Positions 490 through 13,672 of a stretch of 35,479 bases of DNA are shown piece by piece; within the stretch, counting starts at the first letter, position 1, and each line of letters opens with the position of its first letter. Made by a program: the position numbers and the translations under genes. The notes below the pieces were generated by a model that was given only the letters and a program-made list of their open reading frames with translations, was not told the origin of the DNA and made no database searches. The DNA comes from an uncultured Bacteroidales bacterium. Its GTDB lineage: Bacteria > Bacteroidota > Bacteroidia > Bacteroidales > UBA932. The stretch lies in the NCBI GenBank assembly GCA_944326265.1, contig CALVDE010000011.1:1-35479 (forward strand), in the 5' to 3' direction.

Positions 490-570
490 TTAATACAAAA
501 GGCGAACCGTGAGGCCCGCCTTAAATGTTTTCACAACGGAATAATCCTTATTGTGAATTGCTTCAAACTT
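490..570 (-). ncRNA. tracrRNA of the type II-C CRISPR-Cas system
   Basis: Minus-strand positions 570-551 are the anti-repeat. They pair with the first 22-23 nt of the transcribed CRISPR repeat: TTGTGAATTGCTT, one bulged U in the repeat, then CAAACTT. Downstream come a nexus-like segment (GGATTATTCCGTTGTGAAAA) and a terminal hairpin with arms AAGGCG (517-522) and CGCCTT (499-504) followed by TTTTGTATT, an intrinsic terminator. The promoter TATATTTG at 576-583 predicts a start near 570, so the RNA would begin at the anti-repeat and be about 80 nt long. It diverges from cas9, a common place for tracrRNA in Bacteroidota. Its preservation argues that the locus was recently functional. Confidence 0.88.
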
Positions 571-575
571 GAAAA

Positions 576-607
576 CAAATATAGCCCATTTTTCCAAAAT
601 GAGCAAT
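576..607 (-). promoter_or_regulatory. tracrRNA promoter
   Basis: On the minus strand, ATTG (607-604), 20 nt, then TATATTTG (583-576), matching the Bacteroidota consensus TTTG-N19-21-TAnnTTTG. It overlaps the divergent cas9 promoter by about 17 bp. Confidence 0.65.
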
Positions 608-622
608 TTTTTCTTAAATTTG
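591..622 (+). promoter_or_regulatory. cas9-cas1-cas2 promoter
   Basis: TTTC (591-594), 20 nt, then TAAATTTG (615-622), a full match to the TAnnTTTG -7 element. The predicted start is near 629, about 20 nt before the cas9 ATG. It overlaps the divergent tracrRNA promoter, so the two units may compete for polymerase. Confidence 0.6.
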
Positions 623-650
623 AAGCATATTCATTTAATGCCAATACACT

Positions 651-3600
651 ATGAAAAAGATACTAGGCCTAGACCTCGGAGTTTCAAGCATCGGATGGGC
701 ACTCGTTAACGAAGCGGAGACGAAATACGAACATTCTTCTATTACAAAGCTTGGTGTCAGAATAATTAATTATGACAATTTCGGAAATTCTGAGACAGGT
801 AAAGACTCCAAAAATCCTGTAAATGATTTTAGAAGCGGCAAAGGACTCTCTTGCAATGCAAAACGCACACTGAAACGCAGTATGCGCCGCAACCTACAAA
901 GATACAAACTGCGCAGAGCCGCACTTATAGATACCCTTATGTCATACGGATGGATCAACGAGGGCAGTATCCTTGCAGAATCCGGAAAGGATACCACATT
1001 CCAGACTCTGAAACTGCGGGCCAAAGCCGCAGAGAAGGAGATTTCACTGGAGGAACTGGCTCGAGTATTTCTGAACATCAACAAGAAGCGCGGATACAAG
1101 AGCTCCCGTAAGCTGAACAAGAGTGAGAACACAGATGAGGGAAGCCTCATAGACGGCATGGAGACCGCACGGATTCTGAGCGAAGAAGGCATTACTCCGG
1201 GAGAATATTCCTTCCGGCTTTTATGCGAAGGAAAAGAAGAGAAAAATCTGCCGGAATTCTACAAGTCCGACCTGGAAAACGAATTCGAGCGGATATGGAA
1301 ATTCCAGCGGCAATTCTACCCCGACATAATGACTGACACCCTTAAAGAGGAGCTGAGAGGCAAGAGCGAGAAACAGACATGGGCAATATGTGAGAAACCA
1401 TTCAACATAGCCGGTATCAAACGCACATCCAAAGGCAAAGATCTTGCGAAAGAAAATTATCTGTGGAGAACTTTAGCCCTCAAAGAGCAGCTGGATCTGG
1501 AACAGCTCGCCGTAGTACTGCAGAAAGTAAACGCACAACTCAAAAAGTCGGACAGTTACCTAGGGAAAATCAGCGACCGGAGCAAGGAACTTTATTTCAA
1601 GCACCAGACAGTCGGACAATACCAGCTGGAGCAGCTGCTGAAAGACCCGCATTCAAGCCTCAGGAATCAGGTATTCTACAGACAGGATTACATGGAAGAA
1701 TTCGACCGGATATGGGAGACCCAGTCCATGTTCCATCCGGAACTGACACAGGAGATGAGGAATACCCTCCGGAACATCATCATCTTCTACCAAAGGCCAC
1801 TAAAAAGCCAGAAGGGCCTCGTGGCCTACTGCGAGTTCGAGAAAGGCCGGAAAGTATGTCCCAAATCATCCCCGGTATTCCAGGAATTCAAGATCTGGCA
1901 GATATTGAACAACCTGAAAATCGACGGAAAGTATCTGGACATCGATGCTAAAGAGAGGCTGTTCAAAGAATTGAGCATACAAAAAGAGCTGAGCAAGACA
2001 GACGTATTGAAAATATTTTTCGGCAAGTCCAAAGGCCACGACATGAATTTCCGCAAACTGGAGGGCAACCGGACTCAGGCCACTCTGTTCCAGGCATATT
2101 CCAGAATTCTCTCACTCTCCGGACACGGTGAAATTGATTTCTCAAAAGGAGCCGATGCAATTATCGAAAAGACCTCCGCCGTATTCTCCGCACTCGGCAT
2201 CGGTTCCGGCATCCTTACCTTCGACTCATCCAAGTCCGGCAAGGATATGGAAAACGAGCCTCTGTACAGACTATGGCACCTTATCTACTAGTACACGGAG
2301 GACAGTTCCAAAACAGGTTACGACTCACTTGTACGCAAGCTGCATGACGAGTTCGGATTTGACCCTGAATACGGGAAAATACTTGCTGCAGTTACCTTTG
2401 ATGACGATTACGGCAGCCTCAGCACAAAGGCCATGTGCAGGATACTCCCCTACATGAAAAAAGGTATGGAATACAGCGAGGCCTGTACCGAGGCCGGATA
2501 CCGGCATTCACAAAGGTCTCTCACCAAAGAGGAAATCGAAAGCAGGGAGTACAAGGACAAACTGGACATCCTCCCTAAGAATACTCTTCGCAACCCTGTC
2601 GTAGAGAAGATCCTCAATCAGATGATTAACGTCGTGAACGGGGTCATCGACACCTACGGCAAGCCGGATGAGATCCGTGTGGAACTGGCCAGGGAACTGA
2701 AAAAGAATGCCGCCGAACGCCAGAACATGACCGAGGCCATCAACAGGTCCACTAAGGAAAATAAGGACATCGAGGAGAAGTTGAAGCAGGATTTCGGCAT
2801 GAGTCACGTGTCCCGCAACAGCATCATACGGTACAAACTCTACATGGAATTAAAGGACAACGGCTTCAAGACTCTGTACAGCAACACATACATTCCTTAC
2901 GAAGATTTGTTCAGCAAGCGGTTCGACATAGAGCACATCATCCCGCAGTCGAGACTGTTCGACGACTCGTTAGCCAACAAGACTTTGGAAAGCAAGGACA
3001 TCAATATCACCAAAGGCGACATGACCGCATTGGATTTCGTCACCGACAAATACGGTCAGGAAGGACTTGAAGAGTATCGGTCACGGGTTGAAATGCTGTT
3101 TAAGAACAATGCCATAAGCAAGACCAAATACCGCAATCTGCTCAGAACCGGGAAAGATGTCCCGGAGAATTTCATACAGAGAGACCTGCGCGACACTCAA
3201 TATATCTCCAAAAAAGCACTGGAAATGCTGGGTGACATTGTCAAGTCCGTCGTTGCCACTTCCGGCGAGATAACCGCCAGACTACGCGAGGACTGGGGAC
3301 TTATAGACGTACTCAAAGAGCTGAACTGGGACAAATACGACAAACTAGGGCTGACCGAATACTACAACGACCCCGACGGACGCAGAATCAGCCGGATAAA
3401 GGACTGGACAAAGCGGAATGACCACCGCCACCATGCCATGGATGCCCTGACTGTCGCATTTACGAGAAGGAGCATCATCCAGTATCTCAATACTCTCAAT
3501 GCCAAAGACAAAGAGCAGCAACAGGAGATTACCTCAAAAGGCCGCCTGATGCCGCCGATGCCTTTCGATGAAATTCGGAGTGAAGCCAAAAGGCATTTGA

Positions 3601-4724
3601 GCGATATTCTGATATCAATAAAGGCCAAGAATAAAGTCGCCACACGCAATGTCAACAAGACAAAACGCAAGGGCGGATCTAACGAGAAAGTCCAGCTGAC
3701 TCCCCGGGGACAGCTCCACAACGAGACTGTTTACGGACAGATACTGCAATACGAGTGCAAGGAAGAGAAAGTCGGTAGCGCTTTCGATGCAGACAAAATC
3801 GCTACCGTGGCCTGCGAACGCTGCCGTAATGCCCTTTACCAGAGGCTGGCACAATACGGAGGCAACCCCAAGAAGGCCTTCAGCGGTTCCAACAGCCTTG
3901 AAAAGAATCCTGTCTTCACCGACATCCTGCACAGCGAGCAGGTACCGCAAAGAGTCAAGACTGTCAGACTGTCTCCTGTCTACACGATACGCAAGCAGAT
4001 TGACCCCAATCTTAAAATAGACAAAGTCATAGACAGCCACATTAGAAGGATTCTCACCGAGAGGCTTGAAGAATTCGGAAACGACCCCCAAAAGGCATTC
4101 TCCAACTTGGACGAGAATCCTATCTGGCTCAACAAGGACAAGGGCATACAGATTAAACGGATAACAATCAGCGGTCCTACAAGCGTCTACGCACTGCATG
4201 ACAAGCTAAATATGCTCGGAACACCGATTGTGAACAACCAAGGGAAAACCATACCGTCCGACTTCGTCAGCCTGAGCAATAATCACCATATCGCAATATT
4301 TATCGACCCTGACGGAAATCTGCAGGAGCAGCCCGTACCGTTCATGGAGGCAGTCGCCAGAGTCAGCCTCGGAGACCCGGTCATCGACAAGACATACAAA
4401 GTCAAGGATGGCTGGAAGTTCCTGTTCTCCATGAAGCAGAACGAGTATTTTGTATTTCCGAACAATGAGACCGGTTTCTACCCCAACACCATAGATTTGC
4501 TCAATCCGATTAATTACCCGGCAATCAGTCAGAATCTTTACAGGGTTCAGAAACTTGCAAGTAAATATTATGTCTTCCGCCACCATTTAGAAACAACTGT
4601 TGCTGAAGACAATACATTAAGAGACACCACATGGAAAAGGATACAGAATGTCAATGGCCTTAAAGGCATTGTGAAAGTACGCATAGACCACTTAGGCAAC
4701 ATAGTCCAGACAGGAGAATACTGA
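651..4724 (+). pseudogene. cas9: cas9, type II-C CRISPR endonuclease, interrupted by an in-frame TAG at codon 547
   Basis: The frame is open from 651 to 4724 (1357 codons besides the final stop) except for TAG at 2289-2291; there is no frameshift. RuvC-I (ILGLDLGVSSIGWALV, D8) is followed by an arginine-rich bridge helix (about residues 68-95) and the REC lobe. After the TAG come RuvC-II (VELAREL, E678), HNH (DIEHIIPQS, H762; N776), RuvC-III (HHRHHAMDALTVAF, H928, D931) and a C-terminal region with two similar segments (each with a G-x-x-P-x-KAFS pattern). All catalytic residues are present. The N-terminal piece alone (546 aa) has only RuvC-I and REC. The first in-frame ATG after the stop is codon 595 and lacks an obvious ribosome site. 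Size, cas1-cas2 neighbours and absence of csn2/cas4 indicate II-C. UAG is an ordinary stop here (cas1, hicB and prfA use it), so Cas9 is probably lost unless there is readthrough, reassembly or a sequencing error. Confidence 0.93.
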
Positions 4725-4725
4725 T

Positions 4726-5634
4726 ATGATAAAGCGCACCCTATATTTCGGCAATCCTGCATACCTCTCGCTCAAGCTCGGGCAGCTGGTCGTCAAGATA
4801 CCGGACAGTCAGGACAACATGGAGACCGTCCGGACGATTCCCATTGAGGACATAGGAATCGTCATCCTCGACCACAAGCAGATAACCCTCACTCAAGGCC
4901 TTATCGAGAGCCTGCTGGACAACAACTGCGCCCTCATAACATGCTCGTCCAACCACCTTCCCGTCGGCCTGATGCTGCCGCTCTACGGCAATACCATCCA
5001 GAACGAGCGTTTCCGCTACCAGATAGATGCCTCTTTGCCCCTCCGCAAACAGCTGTGGCAACAGACCGTCCAGGCAAAAATATCAAATCAGGCCGCTGTT
5101 CTGAAATACGCCACCGGCTCCGTCCACAACAACATGCAGATATGGGCCGCTGATGTCCGCAGCGGAGACTCTGCCAACATGGAGGCCAGGGCCGCCGCAT
5201 ACTACTGGAAAACCTTGTTCCAGGACATAGACGGATTCGTCAGAGGAAGGGACGAGGACGAACCCAACAATCTGCTCAACTACGGATACGCCATAGTCCG
5301 CGCCATAATCGCACGCGCCTTGGTTTCCAGCGGCCTGCTTCCCACCCTCGGCATCCACCACCACAACCGTTACAACGCCTACTGCCTCGCCGACGACATC
5401 ATGGAACCGTACCGTCCGTATGTGGACAAAACCGTATTCGACATCTGCCGCAGAGGCGGATCCCTGAAACTCACCATCGATCTCAAGCGCGAGCTGCTGT
5501 CCATTCCCACAATGGATGTCTGCATCAACGACAAACGCAGTCCGCTGATGGTCGCTGCAACTACGACTACCGCCTCGCTTGTAAAGTGTTTTACCGGTGA
5601 GATGAGGAGGATATCCTATCCTCTAATTACTTAG
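4726..5634 (+). CDS. cas1: CRISPR-associated endonuclease Cas1 (type II-C)
   Basis: A 302-residue Cas1 integrase, which with Cas2 inserts new spacers at the array. The beta-rich N-terminus ([20 protein letters not shown]) carries the family's [11 protein letters not shown] segment. The metal-binding active site is visible as E153 (in [12 protein letters not shown]), the histidines of GIHHHN (H211-H213) and E227 (in [13 protein letters not shown]). Length is normal for type II Cas1. It starts 1 nt after the cas9 stop and ends in TAG, 8 nt before cas2, so the three genes form one operon. Nothing looks damaged, which contrasts with cas9. Identification is firm. Confidence 0.97.
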
Positions 5635-5642
5635 TATATTCT

Positions 5643-5978
5643 ATGAACGAACGGATAAGCGAATATAGAGTCATGTGGGTACTTGTCTTTTTCGATTTGC
5701 CGACTGATACGAAAAAAGAGCGCAAGGCCGCTGCCGAATTCAGAAAACAGCTGATTAAGGACGGCTTCATCATGTTCCAGTTCTCCATCTATATGCGCCA
5801 TTGCCCCAGCGTAGAAAATGCCAATGTCCATATCCGCAGAGTAAAATCCGTTCTTCCGCCATTAGGGCAGGTCGGAATTCTTTCCATTACCGACAAACAA
5901 TTCGGAGCCATGGAGCTATTTTCCGAGAAAAAGGAACGTCAACCGCCTATCGACTATCTCCAGTTAGAACTCTTTTAA
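5643..5978 (+). CDS. cas2: CRISPR-associated protein Cas2
   Basis: A 111-residue Cas2, the structural partner of Cas1 in spacer integration. The ferredoxin-like first strand ends in the conserved [16 protein letters not shown] segment with the family aspartate at D18. The central [10 protein letters not shown] and the C-terminal IDYLQLELF tail fit type II-C Cas2. A start at M11 is possible, but the ten extra residues ([10 protein letters not shown]) are usual in this subfamily, so the first ATG is kept. It is the last gene of the cas operon, followed by an intrinsic terminator and then the array. Confidence 0.95.
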
Positions 5979-6736: not shown

Positions 6737-6922
6737 ATGAAGTACAATCAGTTATTTGCGGAGCTTACCGCAGCCGGTTGTAGCGTTCACAGACACGGCG
6801 CGAACCACGATATATGGTTCAGCCCCCTTACGGGAAACAGATTCCCACTGCCGAGACACGGCGGACAGGAAGTCCCGAAAAGGATGGAACGCAAGGCAAG
6901 AAAGGTTCTTCTGGGGGAGTAA
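6737..6922 (+). CDS. hicA: HicA-family mRNA interferase toxin
   Basis: A 61-residue protein of the double-stranded-RNA-binding-like HicA fold. HicA toxins cleave mRNA and tmRNA and are held inactive by HicB. The family pattern is clear: an N-terminal helix (NQLFAELTAAGCSVHRHG), the catalytic-histidine strand ANHDIWFSP, and the P-x-P-R-H segment RFPLPRHGGQEVPKRM. Length is typical. It comes first in the pair, as is usual for hicAB. The stop codon lies inside a GC-rich hairpin (6913-6928), and the gap to hicB is an unusually long 104 nt. Confidence 0.85.
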   Translation: MKYNQLFAELTAAGCSVHRHGANHDIWFSPLTGNRFPLPRHGGQEVPKRMERKARKVLLGE

Positions 6923-7026: not shown

Positions 7027-7422
7027 ATGAAAGTAACGGCTATTATGGAAAAGGCGAAGGACGGAAACTTCTCCTGCTTCGTCAAGGAAGACTTTCCGGG
7101 ATTCGGACTGGCGGGCTACGGAAGTACCGCCGCTGAGGCCAGGACGGACATGTTGCTCGCCTGGGCTGAGATCCGGGAGGACATGGCCACCAAGGGTCTG
7201 GAAGTCCCTGAGCTGGAGTTCGTCTACAAGTACGACATGCAGTCATTCTTTGACTGCTTCCCGTTCCTGAATGTCTCCAAGGTGGCCGAGCTGGCCGGCA
7301 TCAACCCGTCACTGATGAGGCAGTATACCTCGGGTGTGGCCAATGCCGGGCAGAAGCAATATGACAGAATACGTAATGCTGTCCGGAAGATTTCACGCGA
7401 GCTTTCGGAAGCCACGTTCTAG
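7027..7422 (+). CDS. hicB: HicB-family antitoxin with C-terminal HTH
   Basis: A 131-residue antitoxin of the HicB partial-RNase-H fold. The N-terminal half has the pattern GNFSCFVKEDFPGFGLAGYGST with the following AAEARTDMLLAWAEI helix. The C-terminal part (about residues 80-128: VSKVAELAGINPSLMRQYTSG) is a helix-turn-helix, so the protein should both block HicA and bind the hicAB promoter. The gene ends in TAG and is followed by two terminators. No separate TAnnTTTG promoter is evident directly upstream, so it probably depends on readthrough of the hairpins after hicA. Confidence 0.85.
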   Translation: MKVTAIMEKAKDGNFSCFVKEDFPGFGLAGYGSTAAEARTDMLLAWAEIREDMATKGLEVPELEFVYKYDMQSFFDCFPFLNVSKVAELAGINPSLMRQYTSGVANAGQKQYDRIRNAVRKISRELSEATF

Positions 7423-7556: not shown

Positions 7557-7587
7557 AAAAATTAGATGATTATATGCCAAGGCGACA

Positions 7588-7635
7588 GCTGTTTGCTGTC
7601 CGTTAAAGATACAAAGTTTGAAGGCGATTCACAAC
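7588..7635 (-). repeat. Solitary degenerate CRISPR repeat
   Basis: The 48 bp match the array repeat at 44 positions; differences are at 7597, 7604, 7623 and 7626. It lies 996 bp beyond the last array repeat, across hicAB, and 3 bp past the phosphoesterase stop codon. The change at 7604 turns the minus-strand -7 box TATCTTTG into TATCTTTA. Those at 7623 and 7626 break pairing with the tracrRNA anti-repeat. It is probably a remnant of the old array end. Confidence 0.93.
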
Positions 7636-12589: not shown

Positions 12590-13672
12590 CTATTCGGCGG
12601 ACTTCAGACGCTCTGCGTTCTCGGCTATGGTCAGCTGGTCAATGACCTCCTGGATGTCACCGTCCATGAAGACGGGCAGATTGTACATCGTATAGTTGAT
12701 GCGGTGGTCGGTCACGCGGGACTGCGGATAGTTGTAGGTGCGGATCTTCGCCGAGCGGTCACCGGTGGAGACCATGGTCTTGCGCTTCTTGGACATCTCG
12801 TTGAGATACTTCTCGTACTCCATGTTGTAGATACGGGTACGCAGCTCTGCGAGGGCCTTGTCGAAGTTCTTGAGCTGGGACTTCTCGTCCTGGCACTGCA
12901 CTACGATGCCGGTGGGGATGTGGGTCAGACGGATGGCCGAGTAAGTGGTGTTCACGGACTGGCCGCCGGGACCTGACGAGCAGAAGGTATCCTTGCGTAT
13001 ATCGTTCATGTTGATCTCCACGTCGAACTCGTCGGCCTCGGGCAGCACGACCACCGAAGCGGCTGAGGTATGCACCCTGCCCTGAGTCTCGGTCTGGGGC
13101 ACACGCTGCACGCGGTGCACTCCGCTCTCATACTTCAGCGTACCGTAGACACCCTGGCCGGACACCTTGAAGATGACTTCCTTGTATCCGCCGGCAGCAC
13201 CCTCGGACTGACTGTTGATCTCTAGCTTCCAGCCCTTGCGCTCGCAGTACTTGGCATACATGCGGAAGAGGTCTCCTGCAAAGATGGCCGCCTCGTCGCC
13301 GCCTGTACCGCCACGGATCTCCACGATGGCGTTCTTCTCGTCCTGAGGGTCCTTGGGAATGAGCAGGAGCTTAATCTCCTCCTCCATTTCCGGAAGCTGC
13401 CCCTCGATGGAGGACACCTCCTCCTTGGCCAGCTCGCGCAGATCCTCGTCTTTCTCCTTGGCCAGGATATCCTTGGCTCCTTCCAGGTCGCCGACCATCT
13501 TGACGTACTTGTCGCCGGCAGCCACGATAGGCTCCAGTTCCTTGTACTCGCGGTTGAGCTGGATGTATTTCTTCATGTCGGACATTACTCCGGGGTCTGA
13601 AAGCTGGGCTGAGAGACTCTCGTATTTCTTCTTCAGTTCCTGTAATTTCTCTGCTAAAGGATATTCACTCAT
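12590..13672 (-). CDS. prfA: Peptide chain release factor 1 (RF1)
   Basis: A 360-residue class I release factor, which recognises UAA and UAG in the ribosomal A site and triggers peptide release. The catalytic GGQ lies in SSGPGGQSVNTTYSAIRLTH; upstream is the RF1-type core (AIVEIRGGTGGDEAAIFAGDL). Length and domain order are normal: N-terminal coiled helices, then recognition domain, then GGQ domain. The gene itself ends in TAG (12590-12592), one of the codons RF1 reads. A -7 box lies at 13694-13701. The presence of a normal RF1 argues against reassigned UAG as an explanation of the cas9 stop. Confidence 0.97.
   Translation of the reverse strand: MSEYPLAEKLQELKKKYESLSAQLSDPGVMSDMKKYIQLNREYKELEPIVAAGDKYVKMVGDLEGAKDILAKEKDEDLRELAKEEVSSIEGQLPEMEEEIKLLLIPKDPQDEKNAIVEIRGGTGGDEAAIFAGDLFRMYAKYCERKGWKLEINSQSEGAAGGYKEVIFKVSGQGVYGTLKYESGVHRVQRVPQTETQGRVHTSAASVVVLPEADEFDVEINMNDIRKDTFCSSGPGGQSVNTTYSAIRLTHIPTGIVVQCQDEKSQLKNFDKALAELRTRIYNMEYEKYLNEMSKKRKTMVSTGDRSAKIRTYNYPQSRVTDHRINYTMYNLPVFMDGDIQEVIDQLTIAENAERLKSAE

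Follow-up and report, generated by a model that had tools for sequence, protein, structure and literature searches.

Premature stop codons and other point mutations in cas genes have been described in both natural and laboratory strains. In Escherichia coli UTI89, csy2 of the type I-F locus carries a natural premature TAG codon, and nonsense and other cas mutations were found in plasmid recipients, where mutants of Staphylococcus epidermidis RP62a accept a targeted plasmid; the same paper views CRISPR-Cas systems as being in flux (Jiang et al., 2013; PMC3784566). On natural split, truncated, inactivated or pseudogene cas9, nothing on point was present among the literature matches listed, which came from search terms that were in part very narrow and do not imply absence from print.

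The window analysed here, 35,479 bases long, makes up an entire contig. It carries a cas9 frame (positions 651-4724, + strand) of 1357 codons with a terminal TGA, and the sole interruption of this frame is a TAG at positions 2289-2291, codon 547. Neither a frameshift nor a second stop was found in the remainder of the frame. The features relevant to the analysis are as follows.

651-2291, + strand: cas9, first part; 546 codons closed by the TAG, covering RuvC-I and the greater part of REC
2289-2291, + strand: in-frame amber codon, cas9 codon 547, aligned to Ser in 103 of 104 homologues
2292-4724, + strand: cas9, second part; 810 codons and TGA (remaining REC, RuvC-II, HNH, RuvC-III and PI)
4726-5634, + strand: cas1 (type II), terminal TAG
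5643-5978, + strand: cas2 (type II), terminal TAA
6077-6591, strand not assigned: CRISPR array of seven identical 48-nt repeats and six spacers of 29-31 nt
491-600, - strand: probable tracrRNA (inferred orientation, approximate ends), in which hairpins and a terminator-like stem come after an anti-repeat
12590-13672, - strand: prfA (RF1, which reads UAG), intact, with TAG as its own stop; outside the locus, given as context for the readthrough analysis

Both parts of the frame match the Cas9 model TIGR01865 (E = 1.3e-70 for the 546-residue part and 1.2e-98 for the 810-residue part), and the HNH_4 and RuvC_III matches lie in the second part. Because both flanking frames are long and are conserved Cas9, chance is no rival explanation for the split frame. 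The motifs LGLDLG, RVELARE, DIEHIIP and NDHRHHAMDA are kept; D8, D924 and H928 are invariant across 99 close homologues, and the RuvC-II glutamate E678 is invariant in a 31-row alignment (A2). The preliminary description of this DNA, which had reported a type II cas9 intact but for a single amber codon, with its catalytic residues surviving, is thus borne out on the first point, with the frame open on both sides and both parts matching Cas9, and on the second for these four residues. RuvC and HNH are supplied by the two parts together and by no single uninterrupted product. The TAG interruption is confirmed as a genuine feature of the assembled sequence.

The codon-547 column was examined in 104 homologous frames longer than 900 residues, a length limit that tilts the set towards intact genes. 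In this column Ser is found 103 times and Phe once, the Ser codons are TCN in every case, and the neighbouring W542, H543 and Y546 are invariant in all 104 frames; the earlier statement that Ser follows the WHLIY motif in related Cas9s was therefore correct. A structure model of codons 370-710 (mean pLDDT 78.9) is mainly helical and places codon 547 at the end of a helix preceding a short loop. Residues 394-619 match the sequence of PDB 9b72, the Rec2 domain of GeoCas9 (PMC12088677). When the 341-residue model was superposed on whole Cas9 chains with Foldseek, the fits were loose (TM to query of about 0.4, rmsd 5-15, rows with E ≤ 0.001) and served solely to confirm the lobe. Since residues 394-619 match GeoCas9 Rec2 and the model is mainly helical, the break falls within the helical recognition lobe, in its Rec2 equivalent. 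Codon 547 lies about 130 codons ahead of E678. The proposal that the cut parts RuvC-I/REC from RuvC-II/HNH/RuvC-III/PI is accurate in that the stop is upstream of RuvC-II onward, but the cut lies inside the REC lobe and not at its border. CbCas9 (PDB 8iyq), the best PDB sequence match, has a WHIIYS motif at the corresponding site, and Bacteroidales Cas9s such as L131, L132 and L004 share 62-63% identity with the window protein over aligned positions; unlike the window cas9, these are uninterrupted at this place.

The gene content around cas9 is, as judged from sequence matches, consistent with subtype II-C. The adjoining cas1 and cas2 are typed as type II (TIGR03639; PADLOC Cas1_II and Cas2_II). 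The anti-repeat at 551-570 matches the CRISPR repeat on the opposite strand and the predicted tracrRNA hairpins are stable (z -3.71), with no Rfam match to positions 491-600. A Csn2 model gave no match, in a search whose controls gave no match either, and the Cas4 search (controls matched in 8 of 14) returned a single match, on another contig, below the cut-off and within a 1005-residue frame. The locus is patchy in the genus: 2 of 19 genomes have it, or 2 of 8 when only those with completeness of 90% or more and contamination of 5% or less are counted. Beyond the array lie a HicA-toxin-like gene (6737-6922; PF07927) and a 131-residue frame without a Pfam match (7027-7422), followed by a lone degenerate CRISPR repeat at 7587-7635 (92% over 49 bases); the pair between array and lone repeat may be a hicAB module inserted at the distal array end.

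A genus search returned one close relative of the window cas9, in genome G017, which has 82% identity and ends at codon 500 at its own contig end. Over codons 1-500 the comparison gave dN 0.104, dS 0.675 and dN/dS 0.154 (488 aligned codons), pointing to purifying selection on this part of the gene relative to G017; the first hundred aligned codons are looser (dN/dS 0.356). It was also observed that window positions 497-650, the 154 bases directly upstream of cas9 (the tracrRNA side and promoter region), are identical to positions 8493-8646 of L162 in G017, while the cas9 genes differ with a dS of 0.68 and the sequence farther upstream is unrelated. This identity may reflect strong constraint or recent exchange.

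Outside codon 547 the gene shows no marked decay. At columns conserved to at least 97%, the window departs from consensus at 2 of 98 positions before the stop and 3 of 156 after it; in each half, 17 of the 99 homologues do so at least as often. Residues found in no homologue number 15 of 522 before and 24 of 804 after the stop. These shares are about twice the median and are reached by 14 and 10 of the 99 homologues, respectively; normal divergence would account for them as well as slight relaxation would. Three of 34 residues in codons 530-565 are absent from all homologues, a share that one homologue of 99 reaches. As a decay signal this cluster was given no weight, the stretch having been picked afterwards and about one such residue being expected at the gene-wide rate. 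Together, these data indicate either a young lesion or a wrong base, and they date the lesion only loosely, the close comparison ending at codon 500.

On the second of these readings, the assembly has a consensus error or a minority-strain base at the TAG, and the gene is intact in the living population. Besides the lack of other decay, it is favoured by the position of the site, 2.3 kb from the contig start, and by the character of the contig ends. Exact copies of 74-77 of the first 77 bases recur at 10 other places, at least 8 of them at the very ends of contigs, a pattern that resembles a short-read graph assembly broken at a repeat; therefore no long-read check is to be presumed. The recurring piece at 1-77 lies about 0.6 kb from cas9 and probably represents a multi-copy insertion element; a 24-27-base part of it also occurs near many more contig ends, including the other end of this contig (35407-35430). 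Substitution errors are rare in short-read contigs, however, and the assembly (24 contigs) is 99.36% complete with 0.4% contamination; both points tell against an error, which we consider unlikely, though well within reason.

Comparison with relatives bears on this reading and on others. When 397 related genomes were searched with the DNA around the site, no near-identical copy spanning the stop was found, and no uninterrupted same-species cas9 was found for comparison. Plasmid records gave no match, and a scan of viral_contigs yielded two homologues at 54%. In a genome scan the best-scoring 80 of 240 homologue loci, a choice that may lean to intact genes, were uninterrupted in 80 of 80 cases, one running off its contig. 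Interrupted cas9 is therefore rare among the best homologues, which lends some weight to an assembly error and speaks against a conserved split arrangement. When 28 family loci were read on both strands, a matching frame was present in each and two frames were present in one, L139 (G327 contig 61), where they overlap and meet near codon 643; either the family has a further interrupted cas9 here or the assembly is in error.

Could the interrupted gene still yield a working protein? The stop might be usefully read through, or both halves might be made and assembled as a two-chain Cas9, with the second chain starting at 2433; the stop would then set the dose of Cas9 rather than destroy it. Consistent with this, both parts keep their conserved motifs, the stop falls at a predicted helix end before a short loop, where a break could be tolerated, and the second part has a possible start codon in the ATG at 2433. 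That ATG is, however, the first in-frame start past the stop, 47 codons on, and restarting there would drop 48 codons of the Rec2-equivalent region, codon 547 included. A natural split Cas9 thus found no support, there being no nearby start and no interrupted gene among the best 80 of 240 homologues. Nor is there a sign of amber suppression. A tRNA model identified 42 places in the assembly, of which ARAGORN typed 41, none with a CTA anticodon (CUA tRNA), so the amber-suppressor tRNA considered in the preliminary description did not materialize. The forty-second (L161 102-160, minus strand; G000 contig 4) is a tRNA-like remnant of 59 nt (31 bits) whose loop reads GAA; an integration may have left it as a piece of a tRNA-Phe gene. 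PylS gave no match above the cut-off in the assembly, RF1 is intact, and TAG serves as the terminal stop of both cas1 and prfA, leaving amber readthrough or recoding without support. A second release-factor gene (L115; G000 C1:81604-82629) contains one in-frame TGA, which we take to be that expected of RF2 with programmed frameshifting. Taken together, a readthrough or two-chain Cas9 is very improbable.

In the 2.36 Mb assembly, HNH_4, Cas9 and Cas1 each matched once. The possible second cas9 was accordingly not found in this 99.36% complete assembly, the window gene being the only one found. Reversible, phase-type inactivation would accord with a lesion confined to a single site and nothing else, but no homopolymer of five or more bases occurs within 2201-2380 and no unit of 2-6 bases is repeated four or more times within cas9; moreover, a substitution-type stop is not a slippage event. 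Slippage-type phase variation is unsupported at a site that has no repeat tract, and we give it almost no credence. Five possibilities had originally been entertained for this stop. A recent null and a base-call error remain, whereas phase-like inactivation, readthrough and a natural split are not supported by the tRNA, RF1, start-codon, homologue and repeat evidence.

The spacers offered no reason for the loss of cas9. Searched against its own genome, the array matched, apart from its own sequence, the anti-repeat at 551-570, the degenerate repeat at 7587-7635 and three stretches of 17-20 bases at chance level; no spacer matched the genome above chance, and autoimmunity as a cause of the stop found no support. 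For five of the six spacers, a 21-22-nt piece from one end had no exact match in viral_contigs; for the sixth, a 21-mer matched one viral contig while the other 8 bases did not. The matches of a phage search (E 0.1-6), in seven pieces joined at one place, were read as falling on the repeats and not on the spacers. No confident viral target was found for the six spacers by the exact one-end searches of viral_contigs and the phage search. In the phage search, 11 Riemerella phage records and one Shigella phage record each contain a lone 34-42-base stretch about 85% like the CRISPR repeat, at weak E-values (0.1-6).

The explanation that we favour, at a probability of roughly three in four, is that the strain carries a null allele of cas9 produced by a recent nonsense mutation; here we infer that the base is real, that the change is young and that function is lost. 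The stop is in frame in a conserved part of the gene, and neither a suppressor nor a second copy was found in the assembly. Translation would begin at 651 and RF1 would terminate it at codon 547, leaving a fragment of 546 residues that comprises RuvC-I and the greater part of REC. Lacking RuvC-II, HNH, RuvC-III and the PAM-interacting part, such a fragment would be unable to cut DNA, and interference would be lost. On this explanation the time elapsed would have been too short for decay to reach cas1, cas2, the tracrRNA and the array, which remain intact. In type II systems, Cas9 takes part in spacer acquisition, where it serves to choose spacers. The earlier idea that adaptation continues is therefore doubtful, and acquisition is probably impaired as well. 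The event itself is unremarkable, since 4.5% of single-base changes in the cas9 frame are nonsense and 240 of its 1357 codons are one step from TAG. That no cause for the stop was found counts against the null reading, as do the failure to find an uninterrupted same-species copy for comparison and the rarity of interruption among the best 80 homologues.

Unless split or readthrough function is demonstrated, this is an ordinary case; a specialist would be surprised only by those unlikely readings. Provided that the base is real, the locus is a further natural CRISPR-Cas locus switched off by point mutation, with its array and adaptation genes persisting, which agrees with the picture of such systems in flux, and annotation by gene content can count such an inactive system as active. 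Like csy2 of E. coli UTI89 (PMC3784566), the window cas9 has one in-frame TAG in a cas effector gene of a natural, otherwise present locus. The UTI89 locus differs in being type I-F, in having a spacer that matches a resident plasmid and in having known strains with the uninterrupted gene (PMC3784566), whereas the window locus is type II, with no spacer target and no same-species comparison copy found. The S. epidermidis RP62a mutants are alike in that nonsense substitutions in cas genes are a way to lose immunity; they are unlike in being type III-A and laboratory-selected (PMC3784566), while no selection is known for the window cas9. The stop in the window cas9 is of the same kind as the csy2 stop of UTI89 and the nonsense mutations of RP62a.
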